Shown: positions 13,698-63,138 of the stretch, piece by piece
How the letters are laid out: every line of letters begins with the position of its first letter
Numbering within the stretch: the first letter of the stretch is position 1
Source: Streptomyces sp. CA-278952
GTDB lineage: Bacteria; Actinomycetota; Actinomycetes; Streptomycetales; Streptomycetaceae
Reading direction: 5' to 3'
Assembly: GCF_028747205.1 (NCBI RefSeq)
Contig: NZ_CP112880.1
Location: forward strand, 2,480,001 to 2,544,000
DNA length: 64,000 nt
Translations under genes and position numbers: made by a program
Notes under the pieces: model-generated
What the model was told of the DNA's origin: nothing
The model's input: only the letters and a program-made list of their open reading frames with translations
Database searches by the model: none

Positions 13698-13700
13698 CAG

Positions 13701-13774
13701 TAGCGGGGACAGGATTTGAACCTGCGACCTCTGGGTTATGAGCCCAGCGAGCTACCGAGCTGCTCCACCCCGCG
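13701..13774 (-). tRNA. Initiator tRNA-fMet (CAT), copy 1
   Basis: The 74-base gene has anticodon CAT in the loop CTCATAA, flanked by the three G-C pairs (GGG/CCC) that mark initiator tRNAs. The first base C1 faces T72, so the acceptor end is unpaired, another initiator feature; D-arm AGCTCGGTAGCT and T-arm GGTTCAAATCC are normal. No CCA is encoded. Identical to the copy at 16184-16257. Confidence 0.97.
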
Positions 13775-16180: not shown

Positions 16181-16183
16181 CCG

Positions 16184-16257
16184 TAGCGGGGACAGGATTT
16201 GAACCTGCGACCTCTGGGTTATGAGCCCAGCGAGCTACCGAGCTGCTCCACCCCGCG
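16184..16257 (-). tRNA. Initiator tRNA-fMet (CAT), copy 2
   Basis: Same 74-base sequence as the copy at 13701-13774: anticodon CAT, three G-C pairs in the anticodon stem, C1-T72 mismatch and no encoded CCA. The matching stretch extends only a few bases beyond the 5' end (CGTCG), then the flanks diverge. Confidence 0.97.
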
Positions 16258-54067: not shown

Positions 54068-55246
54068 CTAGTACACCGGCTTCTCGGGCTCGATCTGGTT
54101 GACCCAGCCGATCACGCCGCCGCCGACGTGCACCGCGTCGGCGAAGCCCGCGGACTTGAGGACCGCGAGGACCTCGGCGCTGCGGACGCCCGTCTTGCAG
54201 TGCAGGACGATGCGCTTGTCCTGCGGGAGGTCCTGGAGGGCGGTGCCCATGAGGAACTCGCCCTTCGGGATCAGCTTCGCGCCGGGGATCGAGACGATCT
54301 CGTACTCGTTCTTCTCGCGGACGTCGATGATCTCGATCTTCTCGTCGCCGTCGATCCACTCCTTGAGCTGCTTGGGAGTGATCGTCGCGCCGAGCGCCGC
54401 CTCCTGCGCCTCCTCGGACACGACGCCGCAGAAGGCCTCGTAGTCGATGAGCTCGGTGACGGTGGGGTTCTCGCCGCAGACCGCGCAGTCGGGGTCCTTG
54501 CGGATCTTGACCTGGCGGTACTGCATCTCCAGGGCGTCGTAGATCATCAGGCGGCCGACCAGCGGGTCGCCGACCCCGGCGAGCAGCTTGATGGCCTCGG
54601 TGACCTGGATGGAGCCGACGGACGCGCAGAGCACGCCCAGCACGCCGCCCTCGGCGCAGGAGGGAACCATGCCCGGCGGCGGGGGCTCCGGGTAGAGGCA
54701 GCGGTAGCAGGGGCCGTGCTCGGACCAGAACACGGAGGCCTGGCCGTCGAAGCGGTAGATCGAGCCCCAGACGTACGGCTTGTTCAGCAGCACCGCGGCG
54801 TCGTTGACGAGATAGCGGGTGGCGAAGTTGTCCGTGCCGTCCACGATCAGGTCGTACTGCGCGAAGATCTCCATCACGTTCTCGGCTTCGAGCCGCTCTT
54901 CGTGAAGGACCACGTTGACGTACGGGTTGATACCCAGCACCGAGTCCTTGGCGGACTGCGCCTTGGACCGGCCGATGTCGGCCTGGCTGTGGATGATCTG
55001 GCGCTGCAGGTTCGACTCGTCGACCTCGTCGAACTCCACGATGCCGAGCGTGCCGACACCGGCCGCGGCCAGATACATCAGGGCCGGCGAGCCGAGGCCG
55101 CCGGCGCCGACACACAGCACCTTGGCGTTCTTCAGACGCTTCTGTCCGTCCATCCCGACATCCGGGATGATCAGGTGGCGGGAGTACCTGCGGACCTCGT
55201 CGACGGTGAGCTCAGCAGCTGGCTCGACCAGGGGTGGCAGCGACAC
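54068..55246 (-). CDS. moeZ: MoeZ, adenylyltransferase/sulfurtransferase
   Basis: Activates small ubiquitin-like sulfur carriers (MoaD, CysO and antibiotic-pathway carriers) by adenylation and then thiocarboxylation. The 392-residue protein has an E1-like domain: KVLCVGAGGLGSPALMYL, QRQIIHSQADIGRSKA, VDGTDNFATRYLVND, zinc pairs CYRC and CAVCG. The C-terminal rhodanese domain is IEIIDVREKNEYEIVSIPGA with the active loop HCKTGVRS (catalytic Cys). Start GTG 55246 (VSLPPLVEPA). M. tuberculosis MoeZ (Rv3206c) has the same neighbours. The promoter lies in the 99-base gap before the spherulin-like gene. Confidence 0.95.
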   Translation of the reverse strand: MSLPPLVEPAAELTVDEVRRYSRHLIIPDVGMDGQKRLKNAKVLCVGAGGLGSPALMYLAAAGVGTLGIVEFDEVDESNLQRQIIHSQADIGRSKAQSAKDSVLGINPYVNVVLHEERLEAENVMEIFAQYDLIVDGTDNFATRYLVNDAAVLLNKPYVWGSIYRFDGQASVFWSEHGPCYRCLYPEPPPPGMVPSCAEGGVLGVLCASVGSIQVTEAIKLLAGVGDPLVGRLMIYDALEMQYRQVKIRKDPDCAVCGENPTVTELIDYEAFCGVVSEEAQEAALGATITPKQLKEWIDGDEKIEIIDVREKNEYEIVSIPGAKLIPKGEFLMGTALQDLPQDKRIVLHCKTGVRSAEVLAVLKSAGFADAVHVGGGVIGWVNQIEPEKPVY

Positions 55247-55345: not shown

Positions 55346-56224
55346 TCATTCCGAGATACCAGGTCCGATCCGCGAGACGATTTCGTCCCAGTACCTGGGC
55401 AGCGCCGCGAATGGGTCGCTTTGTCCGCTTCGGCCGTCCCGGTTGCCTCGGCCCTCCTGGTCGTTCCGGTCGTTCCGGTCGTTCCGGTCGTTCCGGTCGG
55501 TGAAGAAGATCGTCCCGGCGCCCTGCCAGCGGGCGATGCGCATGGCCTCTTCCAGGTGGGTGCGCGGCACCCCGTGGACGAGGTGGGCGAACCGCTCCGG
55601 TGGGTAGTCGGCCGTCCACTCGGCCACCTGGGACCAGCGGTAGTCGGTCCACGGGCCCTGGAAGGTGACCAGTTGGTCGGCCGCCTCCGCGTACCCGGGA
55701 TACGGGTGCGTGCCGTGGCCCAGCACCAGGCGGCCCCCGTCGTCGGCGCTGTCGCCGGCCGCCAGCAGGGCGTGGAGCGTACCGGTGAGCCTGCGGACGG
55801 CCGGCAGCTCGGCCCGCTCGGCGGGGCAGCGCGCGAGGTAGAAGCCACCGATCCGGTACCAGTCGATGAAGGACCGGGCGTCCGCGATCAGCTCCTCGAA
55901 CGGCCGCTCGCCCCAGGCCAGGTCGAGGTGGCCGAGCAGCCTCCCGCCGGAGGCCCGGACGGTGTCGTCCGGGGAGCCGCCGTGCAGGGCGCGTTCGCGG
56001 GCGTTGCGCAGCCTGCCCGCCGCCTCCAGGCAGTGCGGGTCGGGCCGGGAGCCGGGGCCGTCCGCGATGTTGAGGACGGCCCAGTGCAACGGGGTGCCGG
56101 GGCGGGCCAGTTCGGCCCATTCGGCGGGGGCGAGCAGCGGGTGGGCGTAGCCGGGGACGCCGAAGCCGAGCTGTTCACCGCCCGCGGTGCGGCGGGCGGC
56201 GGTGGGAGCGGTCAGATACGGCAC
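55346..56224 (-). CDS. Spherulin-4 family protein (GH135/Sph3-like)
   Basis: A 292-residue TIM-barrel-type protein of the spherulin-4 family, to which the fungal galactosaminogalactan hydrolase Sph3 (GH135) belongs. Family features are LGFGVPGYAHPLLAPAEWAE, WAVLNIADGPGSRPDPHCLE, LLGHLDLAWGERPFEELIAD, RSFIDWYRIGGFYLARCP, LVLGHGTHPYPGYAEAADQL and TFQGPWTDYRW. No signal peptide is visible, unlike Sph3. GTG 56224 has GGAGG 4 bases upstream and overlaps the epimerase gene by 13 bases. A (Arg-Asn-Asp)4 repeat interrupts the C-terminus. It is the last gene of a polysaccharide-type operon. Confidence 0.82.
   Translation of the reverse strand: MPYLTAPTAARRTAGGEQLGFGVPGYAHPLLAPAEWAELARPGTPLHWAVLNIADGPGSRPDPHCLEAAGRLRNARERALHGGSPDDTVRASGGRLLGHLDLAWGERPFEELIADARSFIDWYRIGGFYLARCPAERAELPAVRRLTGTLHALLAAGDSADDGGRLVLGHGTHPYPGYAEAADQLVTFQGPWTDYRWSQVAEWTADYPPERFAHLVHGVPRTHLEEAMRIARWQGAGTIFFTDRNDRNDRNDRNDQEGRGNRDGRSGQSDPFAALPRYWDEIVSRIGPGISE
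55461..55499. repeat. 9-bp microsatellite inside the spherulin-like gene
   Basis: TCGTTCCGG is repeated four times (55461-55496). Read on the minus strand it encodes Arg-Asn-Asp repeats, so changes in copy number keep the frame. Confidence 0.95.
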
Positions 56225-57177
56225 GCCGCCTCCATCCAGATGTCCGCCAGAGACTCCTCCAGATTGATCCGGGGCCGCCAGCCGAGCCGGTCCCGCGCGG
56301 TGCGGACGTCGGCCTGCTGCCAAGCGCCGCAGCCGTCGGGATAGGGAGACGGGGTGGCGGCGAGGTGCTCCATGACGGACTCGGCGGAGGTGCGCGGAGC
56401 CCCGATGGGCAGGCGCGCGGGGGGCGTGTCCAGCTCGTGGAGCGCGCCCGCGTACCCGGCGACTCTCGCCAGGACGGCGGCGGCGTCGCGGAGGCGGACG
56501 GCCCGCCCGGTGCCGATGTTGACGACGCCCTGGGCGGCGGAGAGCGAGGCGGCGTGGACGGCCCGCGCCACGTCCCGTACGTCGACGAAGTCCCGCTGCA
56601 CGCCGAGACCGCTGAGCTTCAGCTCGCCGTCGCCGGACTGCATGGCCCGGCGCATCGCCTCGGCAAGCCGGCCGAGCGGCGAGCCGGCGGGGGTGCCGGG
56701 GCCGACGGGCGAGAAGACCCGCAGGACGACGGCGTCGAGGCCGGAGCCGAGGACCAGTTCGGTAGCGGCGAGCTTGCTGACGCCGTACGGGCCGCCGGGG
56801 CGCGGGACCGCGTCCTCGGCGGTGGAGGACCCGGGCTGCGAGGGCCCGTACTCCGAGGCGCAGCCGACCTGGACGAGCCGCGCCCCGCAGCCGCTGCGGC
56901 GCAGGGCCTCGCAGACGGTGGCGACGGCGACGGTGTTGTGCCGGGTGAGGTCGCGGGCACCGCCGCGCGTGGCGCCCGCGCAGTTGACGACGACTCCGGG
57001 GTGGACGGCGTCGAGGAAGCGGGTGAGCGCCCCGGGGCTGCCGCCCGCGAGGTCGAACCGGACGTCGGCGTCGTCGCCGCGGCCCAGAGCCGTGAGATGG
57101 ACGGCCGGATCGGCGAGCAGACGGTCGGCGACGAAGCGGCCGAGGAATCCGTTGGCTCCGAGCAGCAGCACCCTCAT
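56212..57177 (-). CDS. NAD-dependent sugar epimerase/dehydratase
   Basis: A 321-residue extended-SDR enzyme. The Rossmann motif is MRVLLLGANGFLGRFVADRL; catalytic elements are VQVGCASEYGPSQPGSS and PYGVSKLAATELVL (Tyr-x3-Lys), followed by LRVFSPVGPG and RDFVDVRDVARAV. These are features of UDP-sugar 4-epimerases and dehydratases. GAGG precedes ATG 57177. The spherulin-like gene overlaps its end. In context a UDP-GlcNAc/GalNAc 4-epimerase like PelX or fungal Uge3 is an appealing role, but the substrate is not shown by sequence. Confidence 0.85.
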   Translation of the reverse strand: MRVLLLGANGFLGRFVADRLLADPAVHLTALGRGDDADVRFDLAGGSPGALTRFLDAVHPGVVVNCAGATRGGARDLTRHNTVAVATVCEALRRSGCGARLVQVGCASEYGPSQPGSSTAEDAVPRPGGPYGVSKLAATELVLGSGLDAVVLRVFSPVGPGTPAGSPLGRLAEAMRRAMQSGDGELKLSGLGVQRDFVDVRDVARAVHAASLSAAQGVVNIGTGRAVRLRDAAAVLARVAGYAGALHELDTPPARLPIGAPRTSAESVMEHLAATPSPYPDGCGAWQQADVRTARDRLGWRPRINLEESLADIWMEAACRI

Positions 57178-57374
57178 CGCGCACCGCCTCGGTGCCGACG
57201 GCTCACTGCCGGTGCGGGGGATTGGGGGGTCATGGCGGGTTTCTCCTAGGTCATCGAGTCGGTCGTGCGGTGCTGGACTCTCCCGCGACGTCGGCTCCGC
57301 GGGAGTGGGACGGTGCAGCGGTGAAGCGGTGGAACGGTCGGAGTGGCTGGTGCGGTGGTCGGTGGTCGGTGGGC

Positions 57375-57420
57375 GGGTCGTGCGGTGGTTCGTGGGTGGG
57401 TCGTGCGGTGGTACGTCGGT
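57375..57420. repeat. Two 23-bp tandem repeats in the operon gap
   Basis: GGGTCGTGCGGTGGTTCGTG onward (57375-57397) is repeated at 57398-57420 with three changes, and a weaker copy precedes it. The 252-base gap 57178-57429 is otherwise without a gene and could hold a promoter for the last two genes. Confidence 0.65.
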
Positions 57421-57429
57421 GGGGCCGGC

Positions 57430-58701
57430 TCAGGTCCGGGTGTGGGCGGAGGCGCGGGAGAGCGCGAACGCCGCGTGCAGCAGCAGGCCGACGGCGGCCC
57501 CGCCGCAGGCGAGGGCGGAGACGGCTCCAATCCCGCCCGCCGAGACGAGGGCGTTCACGGGCTGGGCGAGGGGTTCGAGTCCGGGGAGCCGGGCGGCGAG
57601 GACGAGGGCCAGGGCCCCGGCCTCGACGGCGCAGGCGGCGGCGAGCGCGACCGTGCCCGGCTCGGGCAGCCCGTGCGCGGCGAGCAGCCGGGCCACGAAG
57701 AACAGGACCCCGAGGGCGGCGGCCGCGACGGGCGTGCCTCCGCCGAGACCGAGGTCGGCCAGGTACAGCAGGGGCAGCAGCGCGGCGACGAAGAGGGTGA
57801 CGGCCGCCAGGAGCAGGGGCCGCACGCCCGCGCCGAACTCCTCCAGGGCGCGGGAGCCCGTCAGTCTGCGGTGGGCGTGGACGGTGAAGAGATGGGCGCA
57901 CCAGGCGGCCGGGGCGACGGCGGCGCCCAGGCCGAGCAGCGGGGCCGGGGTGCCGTCCCACGGACCGTCCGGGCCGCCGGTCATGACCTGGGCGAGCAGT
58001 TCCTCGCCGTAGACCGCGTAGCTCAGCAGCCAGCAGCCGTACATCCCGGCGCGGCCCGCTCCTTCGGGGGCGCGCAGGGGGCCGCGGCCCAGGCACGCCC
58101 GGAGCGCCAGGCAGGCCAGGACGGCGCCGACGACGGTGACGAGGGCCCGCGTCCCGTCGCCGAGGACGCCCTCGGTGACCCGGAGCACCCCGGCGGTCGC
58201 CAGGCAGGCGGCGCCCGGGAGCAGGGCGAGGAGCGTCCAGGTGGCCCGCGCGTCGGTGTCGGGACCGGGGCCGGGGGACCCGCCGGCTGCGGGCTCCCGC
58301 GTACGGGGCGGCATGCGGGCGTACAGCTCCTCGGCGAGGGCGAAGACGTCGCGGTGGCGGTAGCGGGCGGCGGTGCGGTCGGTGATGCCGTGCGCCTCCA
58401 GTCCGGCGGCGATGTCCAGGGGGTCCACGGCCCGTTCGCACAGGTCGCGGTGGTGGTGGAGGAGCAACTTCACCGGGTCGGCCGGACCCCGGCGGGCGGC
58501 GGCGCCCGGCGCCCGGCGCGCCGGGGTGCGGGGCCGGATCTCCGCAGGGCGTTCCGGGGCGGCAGCGGGATTCGCCGGGTCGTCCGGACGGGTCATCGAG
58601 GGGTCTCCGTGGTCGGGGCGGCCTCCGGGGCCGGGAAAGCTCGCTTCATGGAGGACCGGTTCGTGAAAGGCCGGTTCGTGGAAGGCCGGGTAGTCACGCA
58701 T
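57430..58701 (-). CDS. Multi-pass membrane protein of the Pel-like operon
   Basis: A 423-residue protein. The N-terminal 35 residues include the near-duplicate words AFHEPAFHEPVLHE, then a Pro/Ala/Arg-rich stretch, then a soluble segment VKLLLHHHRDLCERAVDPLD to RHRDVFALAEELYARMPP. From about residue 155 on come eight or so hydrophobic helices (LVTVVGAVLACLALRACLG, PLLLAAVTLFVAALLPLLYL). I recognise no named family. ATG 58701 has GGAGG 5 bases upstream and overlaps the glycosyltransferase stop (ATGCGTGA), so translation is coupled. By position it could export or anchor the polymer made by the glycosyltransferase; this is inference. Confidence 0.72.
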   Translation of the reverse strand: MRDYPAFHEPAFHEPVLHEASFPGPGGRPDHGDPSMTRPDDPANPAAAPERPAEIRPRTPARRAPGAAARRGPADPVKLLLHHHRDLCERAVDPLDIAAGLEAHGITDRTAARYRHRDVFALAEELYARMPPRTREPAAGGSPGPGPDTDARATWTLLALLPGAACLATAGVLRVTEGVLGDGTRALVTVVGAVLACLALRACLGRGPLRAPEGAGRAGMYGCWLLSYAVYGEELLAQVMTGGPDGPWDGTPAPLLGLGAAVAPAAWCAHLFTVHAHRRLTGSRALEEFGAGVRPLLLAAVTLFVAALLPLLYLADLGLGGGTPVAAAALGVLFFVARLLAAHGLPEPGTVALAAACAVEAGALALVLAARLPGLEPLAQPVNALVSAGGIGAVSALACGGAAVGLLLHAAFALSRASAHTRT

Positions 58702-60478
58702 CGCCGCCTCCCACCGGTCCGGACGCGATCGCGCAGACGCCCGCGGGCTCCGGGGCCGGCCGTGGACGGAGGTGCCGCCCGGGCTGGGTCCAGTGGCCGA
58801 GGAGGCGGGCTTCCGGCGGGGTGGCGAAGGGCAGCGGGTTGCCGTCGGCGTCCACGGAGTCGGCCTCGCGGCGCACCGGGGTGCGCGAGATCAGCTCCAG
58901 GTAAATGCCGCGAAATGCCGCGAGGTTCTGTTCGACGGTGAAGAGTTCGAGCGCGCGGGCCCTTGCGGCGGCCCCCAGGCGTGCTCGACGCTCGGGGTCG
59001 CGCAGCAGTGCGACGCAGGCGTCGGCGAGCGCCTTGGGGTTGCGCGGGGGCACCACCAGGCCGGTGCCGCCGATGACTTCGACGACCGCTCCCACGTCGG
59101 TGGAGACGGTGGCCCGACCGCAGAACATGGCTTCGACGAGGCTGACCGGGAAGCCCTCGACGACGCTGGACAGCACGATCACGCCGCCCGCGCCGTAGGC
59201 CTCGGCGAGGTCGGGGATTTCGGGGCCGCCGATCTCCTCGAAGGTGACCGGGCTGACGCCCTCGGTGTGCGCGCCGGCGGCCTCGTCCGGGAAGAGCTGG
59301 GCGGCCAGGGCCGTGCAGTGGGCGAGGTAGGTGGTGGCCTCGTCGCCGTCCGCCGGGGCGCCGAAGACGCGCAGCCGGGCACCGGGCTCGGCGCGGCGGA
59401 CCTCGGCGAAGGCGTGGAGGAGGGCGATCAGGTCCTTGGCGGGCTCGATCCGGCCGACCCAGACCAGCGTGTCGGGGCCGCCGGCGCCCCCGTCCGCCGC
59501 GGCGAGGCGTTCGGCGTCCTCGCCGACCCGGCCGAACCGCTCGGCCGCCATGCCCGGGTAGACCGTGCGCTGCTTGGCGGGGTCCGCTCCGCAGCGCTGC
59601 TGCCAGCGGCGGACGTGGGTGTTGCCGGGGGTGACGATCGCGGCCTGCCGGTAGACCTCGGTGGTGAGACGGCCGTGGAATCCGGCGAGGAGGGCGCGCA
59701 CGGAGGTTCCGTACGGGGTGTCGCAGGCGGCCAGGTAGTGCGCGCGCAGCGGGACGCCGTGCTCGGTGACCAGCAGCGGCACCCCGAAGAAGCGTTTGGC
59801 CAGGAGCCCCGGAAGCGCGGCCGCTCCCCCGGAGGCCGCATGGCAGAGGTCGACCGCCCCGAGACTCTCCTGGTCGTACCAGTCCAGCGAGAGGGGTCGC
59901 AGCGCGCGTTCCAGCTCGGCGGCGAAGGCGAGGTGGTCGGGGACGGTGGCGCTCTGCACGGTGCGGCCCGCGCCCCGGGCGCGGGAGGCGGCCTCCAGGA
60001 TCCGGACGGTGTCCTCGGAGCGCAGGGCGAGATGGAGTCCGCCGCGCTCGCGGGCCAGCTCGGCGAGGCCGTAGAGCCCTTCGGCGAACAGCCCGGCGCC
60101 GGGGCCCTCGCCCGCGCCCGTACCGGGCTCGTCGGGGGCGCAGATCGCGGTGGCGAGGGCGGTGAGGCGGTCGGTGAATCGCCGGCGGTCGCGCCGCCCG
60201 TAGGACTGTTCGCCCCCGGTCACCAGCCGGGCCAGCAGGCCGCGTTCGCCGCTGCCGCGCAGGGTGCCGTCCTCGGGGGTCCACAGCGGCGCGGTGCGCA
60301 CCCGGCCGACCTGGGGCGGCAGCCGGACCCAGCCCTGGCCCTCCTGGTGGGCGGAGCGGCTCAGTGCGAACAGGTCGAACTCGTGCTGCGGCAGCCCGCG
60401 CACCAGTCGGTCGCACCAGAGTCCGGACTCACCGGTCGCATACGGATAACCACCGTCGGTGAGCAGTCCGATCCGCAC
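58694..60478 (-). CDS. GT4 glycosyltransferase with DUF3492 domain (PelF-like)
   Basis: A 594-residue cytoplasmic glycosyltransferase. The N-terminal domain starts MRIGLLTDGGYPYATGESGL, the DUF3492 signature of PelF, the UDP-GalNAc-using polymerase of Pel exopolysaccharide. Further landmarks are DLCHAASGGAAALPGLLAKR, LLVTEHGVPLRAHYLA, LVWVGRIEPAKDLIALLHAF, then the GT4 donor site SSVVEGFPVSLVEAMFCGR (E-x7-E) and STDVGAVVEVIGGTGLVVPP. The last 70 residues are a variable tail. GTG 60478 has GGGGG upstream. It is the first gene of the operon. A simple GT4 of other specificity is the alternative, though DUF3492 makes PelF-like use of UDP-HexNAc the better guess. Confidence 0.87.
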   Translation of the reverse strand: MRIGLLTDGGYPYATGESGLWCDRLVRGLPQHEFDLFALSRSAHQEGQGWVRLPPQVGRVRTAPLWTPEDGTLRGSGERGLLARLVTGGEQSYGRRDRRRFTDRLTALATAICAPDEPGTGAGEGPGAGLFAEGLYGLAELARERGGLHLALRSEDTVRILEAASRARGAGRTVQSATVPDHLAFAAELERALRPLSLDWYDQESLGAVDLCHAASGGAAALPGLLAKRFFGVPLLVTEHGVPLRAHYLAACDTPYGTSVRALLAGFHGRLTTEVYRQAAIVTPGNTHVRRWQQRCGADPAKQRTVYPGMAAERFGRVGEDAERLAAADGGAGGPDTLVWVGRIEPAKDLIALLHAFAEVRRAEPGARLRVFGAPADGDEATTYLAHCTALAAQLFPDEAAGAHTEGVSPVTFEEIGGPEIPDLAEAYGAGGVIVLSSVVEGFPVSLVEAMFCGRATVSTDVGAVVEVIGGTGLVVPPRNPKALADACVALLRDPERRARLGAAARARALELFTVEQNLAAFRGIYLELISRTPVRREADSVDADGNPLPFATPPEARLLGHWTQPGRHLRPRPAPEPAGVCAIASGPVGGGDA

Positions 60479-60709: not shown

Positions 60710-62164
60710 TCAACCGGTGGGGTGAACCCAGGGGTTGGGCTTGCACTTGATGCCGTCGATCTCAAGGGTCTTGGTCTGCTGCTGCATGACCGGAGCCAGG
60801 GCGCCGGGGGTGCGGCAGTTCACATGGTTGTAGCGCAGCCGGTGGCCGACCTCGTGGTTGATGAGCATCTGACGGTAGGGCAGCAATTTGTCCGGGCCGA
60901 AGGTGGCTGCGCCCTGCGCCCAGCGATAGGCGTTGATCATGACGCGGTCGGTCGCGGCGGAATCGCACGAGACGTTGTCGACGGTGGTGTCGAGACCCGA
61001 CTTGGCACACCAGTCGCCGGTGGTCCCGGGGCTGGCGAGCGTGATCACGAAGTCCGGGGTCCCCGACGAGATGCGCTCGAAGGTCATCGCGCCGTTGTGC
61101 GCCCAGCTCCGGTCGTCGTTGAGCGTCTTCTGCACGGCTTCGGCGAACAGGCCGGCGTCGAGGCCGAGGCCCTTCTCCACATCGATCCGGTAGCGGTGCT
61201 TCTGCCCCTTCCCCGGGGCCTTCGCGAGCCCGGGCACCGCCTCGAACGTGCCGCTCGCCTTCAGGTCCGCGGCGAGCGGAAACGGCTGCGCCATCTTCTC
61301 CGCGTACGAGAAGGGCTTGACCTCGGGTTTCGCCGAGGGCTGCTTGGGCCGGCCCGGGGTCGGGCGGGCGTCGGAGCGCGAGGCGTCGGCGCCCGGGTCC
61401 TGCCGCTCCGCATCGGCGGCGCGCGCGGCGGCCGCACGGTCGCCGGAGTCCTCGGCGACCTGTCCGGCCACCACGACCGCGAGCACGGTGGTCACCGCGG
61501 CGGCGGCGATGCCGGTGAACGTCCGCCCCCTGCCGCCCCGGGGCGCGGCGGGTTCGTCCGGCTCCCCGGCATCGGCGCCGGTGCCGGTGTCGGTGCCGTC
61601 CACGCCGTCCGGAGTTCCGGCCGGCGGCGCGTCGGCGTCGAAGGCGTCGACGAACTCCCGGCGCGGGCCCGGCACCGAGGCGCCGGCGGGCGTCGGCTGC
61701 CGCGCCGCCCGGCCGTCCGCGGCGCGCTGGGCCGCGCGCTGGGCGGAGACCTGGCGGGCCACGGCCTGCTGCCGGGCGGCGTCCTGGGGCCCGGCGGGCC
61801 CGCCGGGATACGGCCGGGCGTCGGCGGGTCGGCTGTCCGGACCGGAGGACCGGCCCTCGTCCTGGTGGGGCGGACGGGGATGGGGGGCGCTGCGGGGCGC
61901 GGGGGCGCCGGACTCCCGGCCGTAGCGGGGTACCGATCCGGTGCCCCAGCCGCCGCCCTGCTCACGCTGTTCGGGGTGGCCGCCGCGCACCTGCGGGGCG
62001 TCGGGGGAGAACGGGCCCTGCCCGTCACCGGTCGGCGCGGGAGCGGTCCGCCTGCGCCGGCCGCCGCCGGGTAGGGGCCTCGCCGCGGCGCGCTCGCCGC
62101 CCGGTTCCGTTGCGGCCGTGTCCGGGCGGATCGCCCCGGAGCCCTTTCGACTGTGTCGTCCCAC
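60710..62164 (-). CDS. DUF3152 membrane-anchored metalloprotease-like protein
   Basis: A 484-residue protein. The first 210 residues are a Pro/Arg/Gln/Gly-rich cytoplasmic stretch (QQAVARQVSAQRAAQRAADG). A transmembrane helix (FTGIAAAAVTTVLAVVVAGQ) leads to an outer domain, DUF3152, from KPFSYAEKMAQPFPLAADLK on. It carries MLINHEVGHRLRYNHVNC, an HExxHxxxxxH zinc motif like that of metzincins, and cysteines in DWCAKSG, VSCDSAA, NCRTPG and IKCKPNP that may form disulfides. GTG 62164 (VGRHSRKGSG) lies 8 bases after the hydrolase stop, so the two are cotranscribed. The M. tuberculosis relative is Rv3207c, next to moeZ. Confidence 0.85.
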   Translation of the reverse strand: MGRHSRKGSGAIRPDTAATEPGGERAAARPLPGGGRRRRTAPAPTGDGQGPFSPDAPQVRGGHPEQREQGGGWGTGSVPRYGRESGAPAPRSAPHPRPPHQDEGRSSGPDSRPADARPYPGGPAGPQDAARQQAVARQVSAQRAAQRAADGRAARQPTPAGASVPGPRREFVDAFDADAPPAGTPDGVDGTDTGTGADAGEPDEPAAPRGGRGRTFTGIAAAAVTTVLAVVVAGQVAEDSGDRAAAARAADAERQDPGADASRSDARPTPGRPKQPSAKPEVKPFSYAEKMAQPFPLAADLKASGTFEAVPGLAKAPGKGQKHRYRIDVEKGLGLDAGLFAEAVQKTLNDDRSWAHNGAMTFERISSGTPDFVITLASPGTTGDWCAKSGLDTTVDNVSCDSAATDRVMINAYRWAQGAATFGPDKLLPYRQMLINHEVGHRLRYNHVNCRTPGALAPVMQQQTKTLEIDGIKCKPNPWVHPTG

Positions 62165-62172
62165 GCCCCGGA

Positions 62173-63138
62173 TCAGCTCCCGCCGCAATCGTCCAGCAGT
62201 TCCCGGAACGCCTGGGCGACCGCCTCCGGGTACTCCATCATCGCCACGTGCCCCGCGTCGGGCAGCGTCAGCAGCCGGGCGTCGCGGAAGGCCGCGGCCG
62301 CCCTGCGTGCCATCCGGTACGAGACGAGCTGGTCCCGTCCGCCGTACACGAGCTGGGTCGGTGCCAGCACCCGCTCGGCCTGGCGCCACAGTCCGTGCTG
62401 GCCGCCCAGGGTGTACGCGTCGACGATGCCCCGGGCCGAACGCGTCATCGCGTCCCAGAAGTACGGCAGCTCCAGCCGTCGCTCCATCTCGGCCACCGCG
62501 TTGCGGAAGGCTTCGTCGGAGACCTGTGCCGGATCGCCGTAACAGAGTGCCATGACTCCGCGCGTCCGCTGCTCCGCCGTCCAGCCCTTCGTCAGCCGGG
62601 CGAACAGGGATGCGACTCCCGGCACCGCGAGGAGACCGGTCGGGACGGCGGGTCGCTGCACCCGCCACTCCGGCAGGGCGGGCGAGATCAGGGTGAGGGT
62701 GCGCACCAGGTCGGGGCGGACGGCGGCGACTCGGGTGGCGACGGCGCCGCCCAGCGAATTGCCGAACAGGTGGACGGGCCCCCGCTCCTCCGCGTCCAGC
62801 AGCCGGATCACCGCACGCGCGTGTCCGGTCACCGAGTAATCGCCGTCGTCCGGCGGCGGCGAGTCCCCGAATCCGGGCAGGTCGACCGCCTCGCCGTCGA
62901 CCAGGTCGGACAGCAACGGCATCAGCGCGGACCAGTTCTGCGACGAGCCGCCGAGCCCGTGCACGTACAGCGCGGGGGGCAGTCCGGTCCGGTCGCCCGG
63001 CCGGCAGCGGACGTTCAGGCCGATCCCCGGCAGCGACACGGAGCGCAGCCGCTCACCGTCGGCGACCCGGACGGCACTGACCGTGGGAGCCACCGCGGCG
63101 GCGGCGGCCTGGGCACCCGGCAGCTCGGTCGAAGACAT
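62173..63138 (-). CDS. Alpha/beta hydrolase
   Basis: A 321-residue cytoplasmic alpha/beta-hydrolase-fold enzyme. Elements are the oxyanion loop YVHGLGGSSQNW, DLPGFGDSPPPDDGDYSV, the nucleophile elbow HLFGNSLGGAVATRVA (Ser), the acid region LVYGGRDQLVSYR (Asp) and the His in LPDAGHVAMMEYP. It is close to the bacterial epoxide-hydrolase/esterase-like group; the substrate is not inferable. ATG 63138 opens MSSTELPGAQ. First gene of a two-gene unit with the DUF3152 protein and divergent from the small acidic protein gene. Confidence 0.88.
   Translation of the reverse strand: MSSTELPGAQAAAAAVAPTVSAVRVADGERLRSVSLPGIGLNVRCRPGDRTGLPPALYVHGLGGSSQNWSALMPLLSDLVDGEAVDLPGFGDSPPPDDGDYSVTGHARAVIRLLDAEERGPVHLFGNSLGGAVATRVAAVRPDLVRTLTLISPALPEWRVQRPAVPTGLLAVPGVASLFARLTKGWTAEQRTRGVMALCYGDPAQVSDEAFRNAVAEMERRLELPYFWDAMTRSARGIVDAYTLGGQHGLWRQAERVLAPTQLVYGGRDQLVSYRMARRAAAAFRDARLLTLPDAGHVAMMEYPEAVAQAFRELLDDCGGS

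Follow-up and report, generated by a model that had tools for sequence, protein, structure and literature searches.

In the accessible text of Bamford et al. 2020 (PMC7229062), all bacterial Agd3-like operons identified are described as encoding a cytoplasmic glycosyltransferase together with a multi-spanning membrane protein, often accompanied by a GH114 gene, and in some Actinobacteria also by Spherulin-4 genes. The fungal GAG cluster consists, according to the part of PMC4817252 available, of uge3, sph3, gtb3, agd3, and ega3. In this study, we analyzed a stretch of 64,000 nucleotides from Streptomyces sp. CA-278952 (termed the window; all positions refer to it), in which the minus-strand operon 55346-60478 had been predicted to be Pel/GAG-like. 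Our main reading, to which we assign a probability of about 0.52 together with the working model outlined below as a whole, is that this operon descends, in a reduced form linked to moeZ, from a GAG/Pel-like cluster of actinobacteria.

On re-check, all four predicted minus-strand genes were found again, as were the stop/start overlaps at two of the three junctions. The reading frames encode a PelF-like DUF3492/GT4 glycosyltransferase (GT, 58694..60478), a multi-pass membrane protein (MEM, 57430..58701), an NAD(P)-dependent short-chain enzyme (EPI, 56212..57177), and a Spherulin-4/GH135-like protein (SPH, 55346..56224). The overlaps measure 8 bases (GT/MEM) and 13 bases (EPI/SPH), and MEM is separated from EPI by a gap of 252 bases. 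A leader reading frame of 19 codons on the same strand (57174..57233), with the Shine-Dalgarno-like sequence AGGAGA, ends in an ATGA overlap with the EPI start; the gap before EPI was also searched for remnants of the remaining cluster genes, without a significant match (best E 0.09, to GH114). The conserved downstream neighbor moeZ/moeB (54068..55246, minus strand; ThiF and rhodanese domains) served as locus marker. EPI matches at E <= 1e-60 were obtained, one per genome, in 141 of 150 sampled genomes of the family, and moeZ and EPI share one locus in 80/80 named loci (the best 80 of at least 564 relatives), so that the operon is not a chance find.

Fuller clusters of actinomycetes contain genes for an Agd3-like deacetylase, GT, MEM, and SPH, often for a GH114 hydrolase, and sometimes a dehydratase-nucleotidyltransferase-EPI trio. 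An Agd3-like protein and a GT were encoded together in 13 of 20 fetched regions; the other seven comprised three moeZ-linked loci, one partial cluster (L063), one region with SPH only (L057), one without any assigned role (L054), and one without a gene call (L051). An EPI homologue stands beside a LegB-like dehydratase and a nucleotidyltransferase in 5 of the 13 full clusters. Identity of full-cluster proteins to those of the window is 34-42% for GT, 42-45% for EPI (5 loci), and 25-41% for SPH. The best solved match of a 14-member profile of the Agd3-like proteins was 6nwz (E 1.1e-5). All 14 members share the Asp-Asp pair covered by this alignment; their His motif lies in a segment of the 6nwz match that has no significance of its own. 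Pfam Agd3_CE was matched by 8 of the 14 members at E <= 0.01, but those members that were scanned against the cut-off of this family scored below it.

One full cluster, L105, belongs to the same family as the window genome and lies near moeZ, with two opposite-strand gene calls between GH114 and moeZ. Its Agd3-like gene is truncated where the fetched sequence ends and was recognized as such only through 54% identity with that of L058; searched as a single sequence, it matched no Agd3 among solved structures and no Pfam family. The GT tree unites the 19 reduced GTs in a single clade (100/99); L105 is its sister at 93/87, which falls short of the starred level. In the EPI tree, L105 joins the moeZ clade (97), but this tree came from a quick search in which L105 was marked as a long branch. 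Because a full cluster lies near moeZ in L105 and the trees place L105 beside the window clade, the interpretation that suits the window operon best is that of a reduced descendant; descent with reduction from a fuller cluster is, as judged from sequence comparison, probable. L105 is the single full cluster near moeZ on which this ancestry argument rests.

Reduction appears to have gone further at some loci, where SPH, GT, or MEM is absent. According to the gene caller, L104 has EPI only, without GT, MEM, and SPH, and L102 has EPI and SPH without GT or MEM. Since the gene caller was a simple GC-frame script, an absent gene is a less certain result than a present one. The samplings of moeZ-linked loci behind our counts partly overlap, and second loci of one genome were excluded from the trees and from the 19-row GT and 48-row EPI motif counts. 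Short calls were likewise excluded: GT below 350 aa (tree and 19-row count) or 250 aa (18-row and 64-locus counts), EPI below 230 aa, and SPH below 120-190 aa depending on the set.

The GT matched DUF3492 (PF11997) with 93.5 bits against a cut-off of 23.3, and also GT4 domains, which bears out the predicted DUF3492 assignment; the further designation as PelF-like holds at this level and not at that of the PelF equivalog NF038011, for which the score of 93.7 bits is below the cut-off of 100. Two full-cluster GTs reached 177.9 and 166.6 bits against NF038011. The GT is the sole DUF3492 match in the genome. Its EX7E motif is intact (Glu441, 59156-59158; Glu449, 59132-59134). The motif and/or the donor-site Arg/Lys were lost in several lineages (10 of 19 GT rows), while all four scored residues were present in 53 of 64 named loci and loss was seen in 11 (loci among the best 80 of at least 564 relatives); in a further locus sample both motif Glu occurred in 18/18 GT rows covering the motif, a count that does not include L134, with a GT row truncated by the gene caller, and L136, without a GT call. 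The motif is thus intact in the window species and missing in some sister genera. Given these losses and the loci lacking SPH, GT, or MEM, not every part is needed everywhere, which speaks against the main reading. The dN/dS of GT was 0.13-0.32 (6 pairs).

The MEM shares an N-terminal motif with full-cluster MEMs. In a rough hydropathy count its hydrophobic segments numbered 7, in agreement with its description as multi-pass; most full-cluster MEMs have more. Neither Pfam nor NCBIfam gave a match at E <= 1, and the original description had likewise recognized neither PelE nor PelG in it. An AlphaFold2 model from a shallow alignment of 61 rows (pLDDT 57) gave no Foldseek match at E <= 0.001; WzxE (E 2.2) and MurJ (E 6.9) were among the weak matches and were not counted. 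MEM dN/dS was 0.11-0.42 (8 pairs).

For EPI, the label sugar epimerase holds at the superfamily level only (PF01370, 126 bits). Among solved structures, GDP-4-keto-6-deoxyhexose reductases rank first and second (2pk3, 75.8 bits; 6x3b, 62.4 bits), followed by MoeE5 (53.1), 6wjb (52.6), 6wj9 (50.9), and a UDP-glucose 4-epimerase (49.3 bits). Database entries list 6wjb and 6wj9 as epimerase/dehydratase family; we take both to be the PelX epimerase. No NCBIfam cut-off was reached by EPI or by two full-cluster EPIs scanned, in which galE was the top model far below threshold (49.6 and 49.9 of 262.3 bits). Given the reductases at the top of the list and the dehydratase and nucleotidyltransferase beside 5 of the full-cluster homologues, a Uge3-like UDP-HexNAc epimerase is doubtful, and an Rmd-like 4-keto reductase appears more likely than a 4-epimerase; the epimerase scores, close behind those of the reductases, and the galE result speak against the reductase reading. 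The GxxGxxG and YxxxK motifs are intact; among reduced-operon EPIs the three Gly and the Lys are present in 48/48 and the Tyr in 47/48. Of the four proteins, EPI evolves under the tightest constraint (dN/dS 0-0.14, 8 pairs).

The SPH matched PF12138 Spherulin4 with 51.4 bits (cut-off 30.2), as predicted, and the claimed lack of a signal peptide agrees with the absence of an N-terminal hydrophobic stretch by crude score. A profile built from the window SPH and 16 others, either secreted or from fuller clusters, aligned Sph3 (5c5g) at E 6.5e-32. Both acids of Sph3 fall on the scored Asp and Glu columns, which were anchored on 5c5g; the single SPH sequence found no solved structure. At the position of the nucleophile Asp of Sph3 and full-cluster homologues the window has Ala (codon 131, 55832..55834, minus strand), and at that of the acid/base Glu it has Gln (codon 189, 55658..55660, minus strand). 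Among 108 distinct moeZ-linked SPHs (18 of 126 rows were removed, the last 140 residues being identical to another), 107 carry another residue in place of the Glu and 26 in place of the Asp, the Asp being kept in 82; counter to the main reading, one reduced SPH, that of L138, has both acids. Both are present in 14/14 full-cluster homologues, and also in L052_5 and L057_7, which have a signal-like start and stand outside this set. Of 1242 database homologues, the 120 listed as best all lack the catalytic Glu (0/120). Tallies of PF12138 are lower bounds, as the fast family search used for them twice missed the SPH of the window itself, which it did find in another instance.

At the Glu site 11 other residues occur (Asp in 3 sequences), and its column is number 231 of 247 in the variability ranking, with near-invariant adjoining residues. 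Acids at positions 225, 226, 243, 280, and 281 are found in 86-100% of the reduced clade vs 7-29% of full clusters. With a dN/dS of 0.17-0.33 (8 pairs), SPH is still under evolutionary constraint. Its AlphaFold2 model, examined for the TIM-barrel fold of GH135 (pLDDT 47; shallow alignment of 55 rows, all >=77% identical to the window SPH), had no Foldseek match at E <= 0.001, and the pLDDT of the SPH and MEM models is too low to reveal a binding cleft. The original prediction of a trimming hydrolase had itself named loss of the Sph3 acids beforehand as evidence against it; as both are gone, trimming by SPH is not supported, and SPH is very probably not a GH135 hydrolase.

In S. coelicolor, where SCO5178 is moeB, the accessible text of an expression paper reports SCO5174, SCO5175, and SCO5177 as up 2.2-3.8 log2 in second mycelium; SCO5176 is without mention in that text. 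A SCO5174 mutant is described, again in accessible text, as having reduced actinorhodin, with cell envelope as the category given for this gene. SCO numbers were paired with the window genes by gene order and annotation only; on this pairing, the likely counterparts of GT, MEM, and SPH are induced in differentiated mycelium.

These data may be combined in a working model in which the operon is active and builds a surface glycan; we see roughly even odds for it. Comparison with full clusters shows that the operon has no Agd3-like deacetylase, no GH114 hydrolase, no LegB-like dehydratase, and no nucleotidyltransferase, that the hydrolytic pair of SPH is gone, and that MEM has fewer segments, while EPI and, in this species, GT retain their catalytic motifs. 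EPI may supply or modify a nucleotide sugar, more likely through reduction of a 4-keto group than through 4-epimerization, and GT may add a hexosamine-type sugar to a surface glycan at MEM. SPH could be a cytoplasmic, non-hydrolytic subunit that binds glycan or GT and was retained for binding, and glycan would be produced mainly in differentiated mycelium.

If only EPI (and moeZ) were useful, GT, MEM, and SPH could instead be undergoing neutral loss with no product. The strong constraint on EPI and its wider retention (L104, L102) fit this, as do the missing GT catalytic residues in several genera and the lost MEM segments. However, dN/dS of SPH, GT, and MEM is well below 1 in all pairs tested, many SPH positions outside the active site are near-invariant over 108 sequences, most named loci retain all four GT motif residues, and the likely S. 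coelicolor counterparts are strongly induced in development; we consider such decay fairly unlikely. Distinctly less probable is a conversion of the polymer-making cluster into a developmental membrane complex, in which SPH, and in several genera GT too, would have ceased to catalyze and would only bind sugars or nucleotide sugars, grouped around a single active reductase; such a complex would link the supply of nucleotide sugars to remodeling of the envelope as hyphae differentiate.

The model proposed originally, a working GAG/Pel-like operon in which an epimerase feeds UDP-GalNAc to GT and a Spherulin-4 hydrolase trims a cationic polymer, draws on the kinship of the genes with GAG/Pel clusters, the intact GT motif, and the epimerases among the weaker EPI matches. 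The kinship is real, through DUF3492 and the full clusters including one near moeZ, but ancestral. The missing SPH acids, the sub-threshold PelF score, and the reductases heading the EPI matches speak against the model. Moreover, an Agd3-like protein was not matched in the window genome at E <= 1e-20 with the L058 protein, a query that found matches in 32 of 61 genus genomes searched; a search of the entire genome for PelG (PF16933) gave nothing at E <= 0.001; and the single GH114 lies at 8.03 Mb, 5.5 Mb from the operon. A deacetylated (cationic) polymer is therefore not supported, and we regard the model as very unlikely. The least probable reading is that SPH is an enzyme of altered chemistry, with a relocated acid or a transfer reaction needing Asp alone: the Asp in 82 of 108 reduced SPHs and the five clade-typical acids would suit it, but the window SPH lacks the Asp as well, no conserved substitute acid adjoins the lost Glu, and the Glu site tolerates 11 other residues.

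The reduced-descendant reading matters since Streptomyces is a developmental model, and an operon that is family-wide and probably induced in development now has a nameable origin. The natural series of full cluster, four genes, three genes, and one gene bears on the role of a GH135 domain unable to cut. At such loci the labels 'spherulation-specific family 4' and 'epimerase' are, without a test, no proof of a GAG hydrolase or a UDP-HexNAc epimerase.

Compared with the operons in the accessible text of Bamford et al. (PMC7229062), the fuller clusters L044-L050, L052, L053, L055, L056, L058, L062, and L105 resemble this kind, which is already in print. The window operon differs from it in lacking agd3 and GH114, in lying at moeZ, and in a Spherulin-4 without catalytic acids; no account of this reduced moeZ-linked form was found in the literature searched. 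Like Gram-positive pelDEADAFG, as far as given in PMC7112168, the window operon has a DUF3492/GT4 PelF-like glycosyltransferase. Unlike pelDEADAFG, it has no PelG in its genome, a GT below the PelF cut-off, and MEM, EPI, and SPH without a Pel-family Pfam match, none of the four proteins matching PelD, PelE, or PelA in Pfam. Unlike the fungal GAG cluster in the text seen of PMC4817252, it has neither deacetylase nor Ega3, its EPI is nearest to Rmd, and its SPH has no visible signal peptide and lacks the GH135 pair; in both, however, a spherulin-4 protein is encoded alongside an NAD-dependent sugar enzyme and a glycosyltransferase linked to the membrane.

The operon (window 55346-60478, minus strand; the window spans 2.48-2.54 Mb of the 8.21-Mb genome) encodes, in this order, a DUF3492/GT4 PelF-like glycosyltransferase (GT), a multi-pass membrane protein (MEM), an enzyme of the "epimerase" superfamily (EPI), and a Spherulin-4 (GH135/Sph3-like) protein (SPH); moeZ (ThiF plus rhodanese) then follows. 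Reading frames and family searches bore out the coordinates, overlaps, and families originally predicted for the four genes. Whole-genome searches gave one match each for Spherulin-4 and DUF3492 and none for PelG or an Agd3-like protein, so a second galactosaminogalactan (GAG)/Pel cluster of such kind was not found in the genome. Its sole GH114 match (endo-galactosaminidase family; genome position 8028177-8028821) is distant from the operon, at 0.18 Mb from the contig end, and the strain may therefore still encounter polymers of GalN. Upstream of GT, a DUF3152 protein (60710-61762) and an alpha/beta hydrolase (62173-63093) are encoded, both recurring near GT in a number of relatives. Elsewhere in the window, two tRNA-Met genes (13700-13774 and 16183-16257) with identical anticodon and equal Rfam scores are 2.4 kb apart.

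There is good support for loss of the active site in SPH. By alignment to solved Sph3 (5c5g; E 6.5e-32), both active-site acids were located on SPH columns; their spacing of 56 residues in the 5c5g chain is consistent with D166/E222 as the Sph3 acids. They are printed as Asp196/Glu222 in an excerpt of PMC12054363. Both acids are present in 14/14 SPHs from full clusters, i.e. actinomycete clusters with an Agd3-like deacetylase, including L105, a full cluster near moeZ. Among 108 distinct SPHs of moeZ-linked reduced operons like that of the window, the Asp was retained in 82 and the Glu in one (L138), the latter being replaced by Ser (50), Ala (17), Arg (14), Cys (6), Thr (6), Gln (4), Asp (3), Asn (3), Leu (2), Tyr (1), or His (1). 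Among the homologues listed from the database for the window SPH (best 120 of 1242), none has the Glu. With a variability rank of 231 of 247, the Glu column is one of the most changeable, whereas the motif around it is near-invariant; dN/dS values of 0.17-0.33 in eight pairs indicate persisting constraint on SPH. Judged from these alignments, SPH appears to have given up cutting and retained some other role, instead of acting as the hydrolase of the original prediction. A tandem DRN repeat of four copies near the C-terminus of the window SPH (55463-55498) recurs in part in the nearest aligned relative (P0126) only.

For GT, the EX7E motif is intact in the window. Both Glu were found in 9/19 reduced GTs versus 14/14 full-cluster GTs (13 plus L105), and in 18/18 GT rows of a further locus set; Arg, Lys, and both Glu were retained in 53 of 64 named loci (from the best 80 of at least 564 relatives). 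Catalytic residues were lost in some lineages, among the named loci Streptacidiphilus and Peterkaempfera. By a crude count, MEM has 5-8 hydrophobic segments in reduced operons versus 8-12 in fuller ones.

EPI of reduced operons retains three glycines (48/48), Lys (48/48), and Tyr (47/48) at a dN/dS of 0-0.14. It was proposed as an epimerase, and galE is indeed the top NCBIfam model for two full-cluster EPIs, albeit far sub-threshold, which counts against a reductase. The top solved relatives of the window EPI, however, are GDP-4-keto-6-deoxyhexose reductases (75.8 and 62.4 bits), with epimerases ranking lower (MoeE5 53.1, 6wjb 52.6, GalE 49.3 bits). Two scanned full-cluster dehydratases scored 454 and 459 bits with the LegB model (cut-off 475) and adjoin a nucleotidyltransferase, which fits EPI as a 4-keto reductase for the third step. 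A reductase is tentatively considered more likely than a UDP-HexNAc epimerase. In the window genome, a close LegB-like protein was not found (best match 35% identity). A leader frame of 19 codons (57174-57233) carries a Shine-Dalgarno-like site, terminates in the ATGA start of EPI, and may couple EPI translation. Such leaders (15-49 codons) precede 21 of the 33 EPI starts found by motif in 81 sequences, 19/33 falling within 8-40 codons; a rough control with EPI starts still included gave 77/932 called gene starts (8-40 codons).

Paralogous clusters were reached via one class-wide and one genus-wide Spherulin-4 search, and 20 regions were fetched. Some members were family-checked, the remainder being assigned by BLAST role. 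An Agd3-like protein and a DUF3492-type GT were present in 13/20 regions, of which 12 had MEM, 12 SPH, 8 GH114, and 5 the trio of LegB-like dehydratase, nucleotidyltransferase, and EPI. The Agd3-like assignment follows from a profile match to solved Agd3 (6nwz; E 1.1e-5) with an invariant Asp-Asp pair (14/14). These trio clusters are L044, L045, L046, L049, and L050, to which L105 (below) is added.

EPI-centred regions were also taken from the family, with 20 genomes sampled (19 representing other genera, plus G234 from the window's genus). L105 encodes Agd3-like, GT, MEM, LegB-like, nucleotidyltransferase, EPI, SPH, and GH114 proteins, two opposite-strand gene calls standing between cluster and moeZ; its Agd3-like gene, cut by the region edge, shares 54% identity with that of L058. 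The 19 reduced moeZ-linked GTs form a single clade (100/99) with L105 as sister (93/87). A quick EPI tree also places L105 with the moeZ clade (97), yet on a flagged long branch. Descent of the window operon from a full cluster is fairly well supported, and the simplest reading would be shrinkage of a full cluster located at moeZ, a reading that rests on one full-cluster genome. Some loci have GT, MEM, and EPI without SPH (e.g. L094, L098, L103, L110), L102 has only EPI and SPH of the set, and L104 has EPI without the other three.

In S. coelicolor, where moeB is SCO5178 (excerpt of PMC4340878), SCO5174, SCO5175, and SCO5177 are presumably the counterparts of GT, MEM, and SPH, as matched by gene order and annotation, not sequence. 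In Table 3 of PMC3610822, SCO5174 (transferase), SCO5175, and SCO5177 figure among the unknown genes with the strongest differential expression in the second (differentiated) mycelium, with log2 values of 2.2-3.8 versus first mycelium at 24, 48, and 72 h. According to passages of PMC6585502, SCO5174 is classed among cell-envelope genes and its mutant showed lowered actinorhodin.

In the open-licence literature searched, neither a moeZ-linked reduced operon nor a dead GH135 protein within one was found described. Whatever product is proposed for the operon is putative. In the trio clusters, 6-deoxy-HexNAc may be the building block, which would make their product a 6-deoxy version of a GAG/Pel-type polymer. 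The full cluster is already known, since Agd3-like exopolysaccharide operons of this kind were reported by Bamford et al. 2020 (PMC7229062), and the window operon is a reduced, partly pseudo-enzymatic variant of that known kind.
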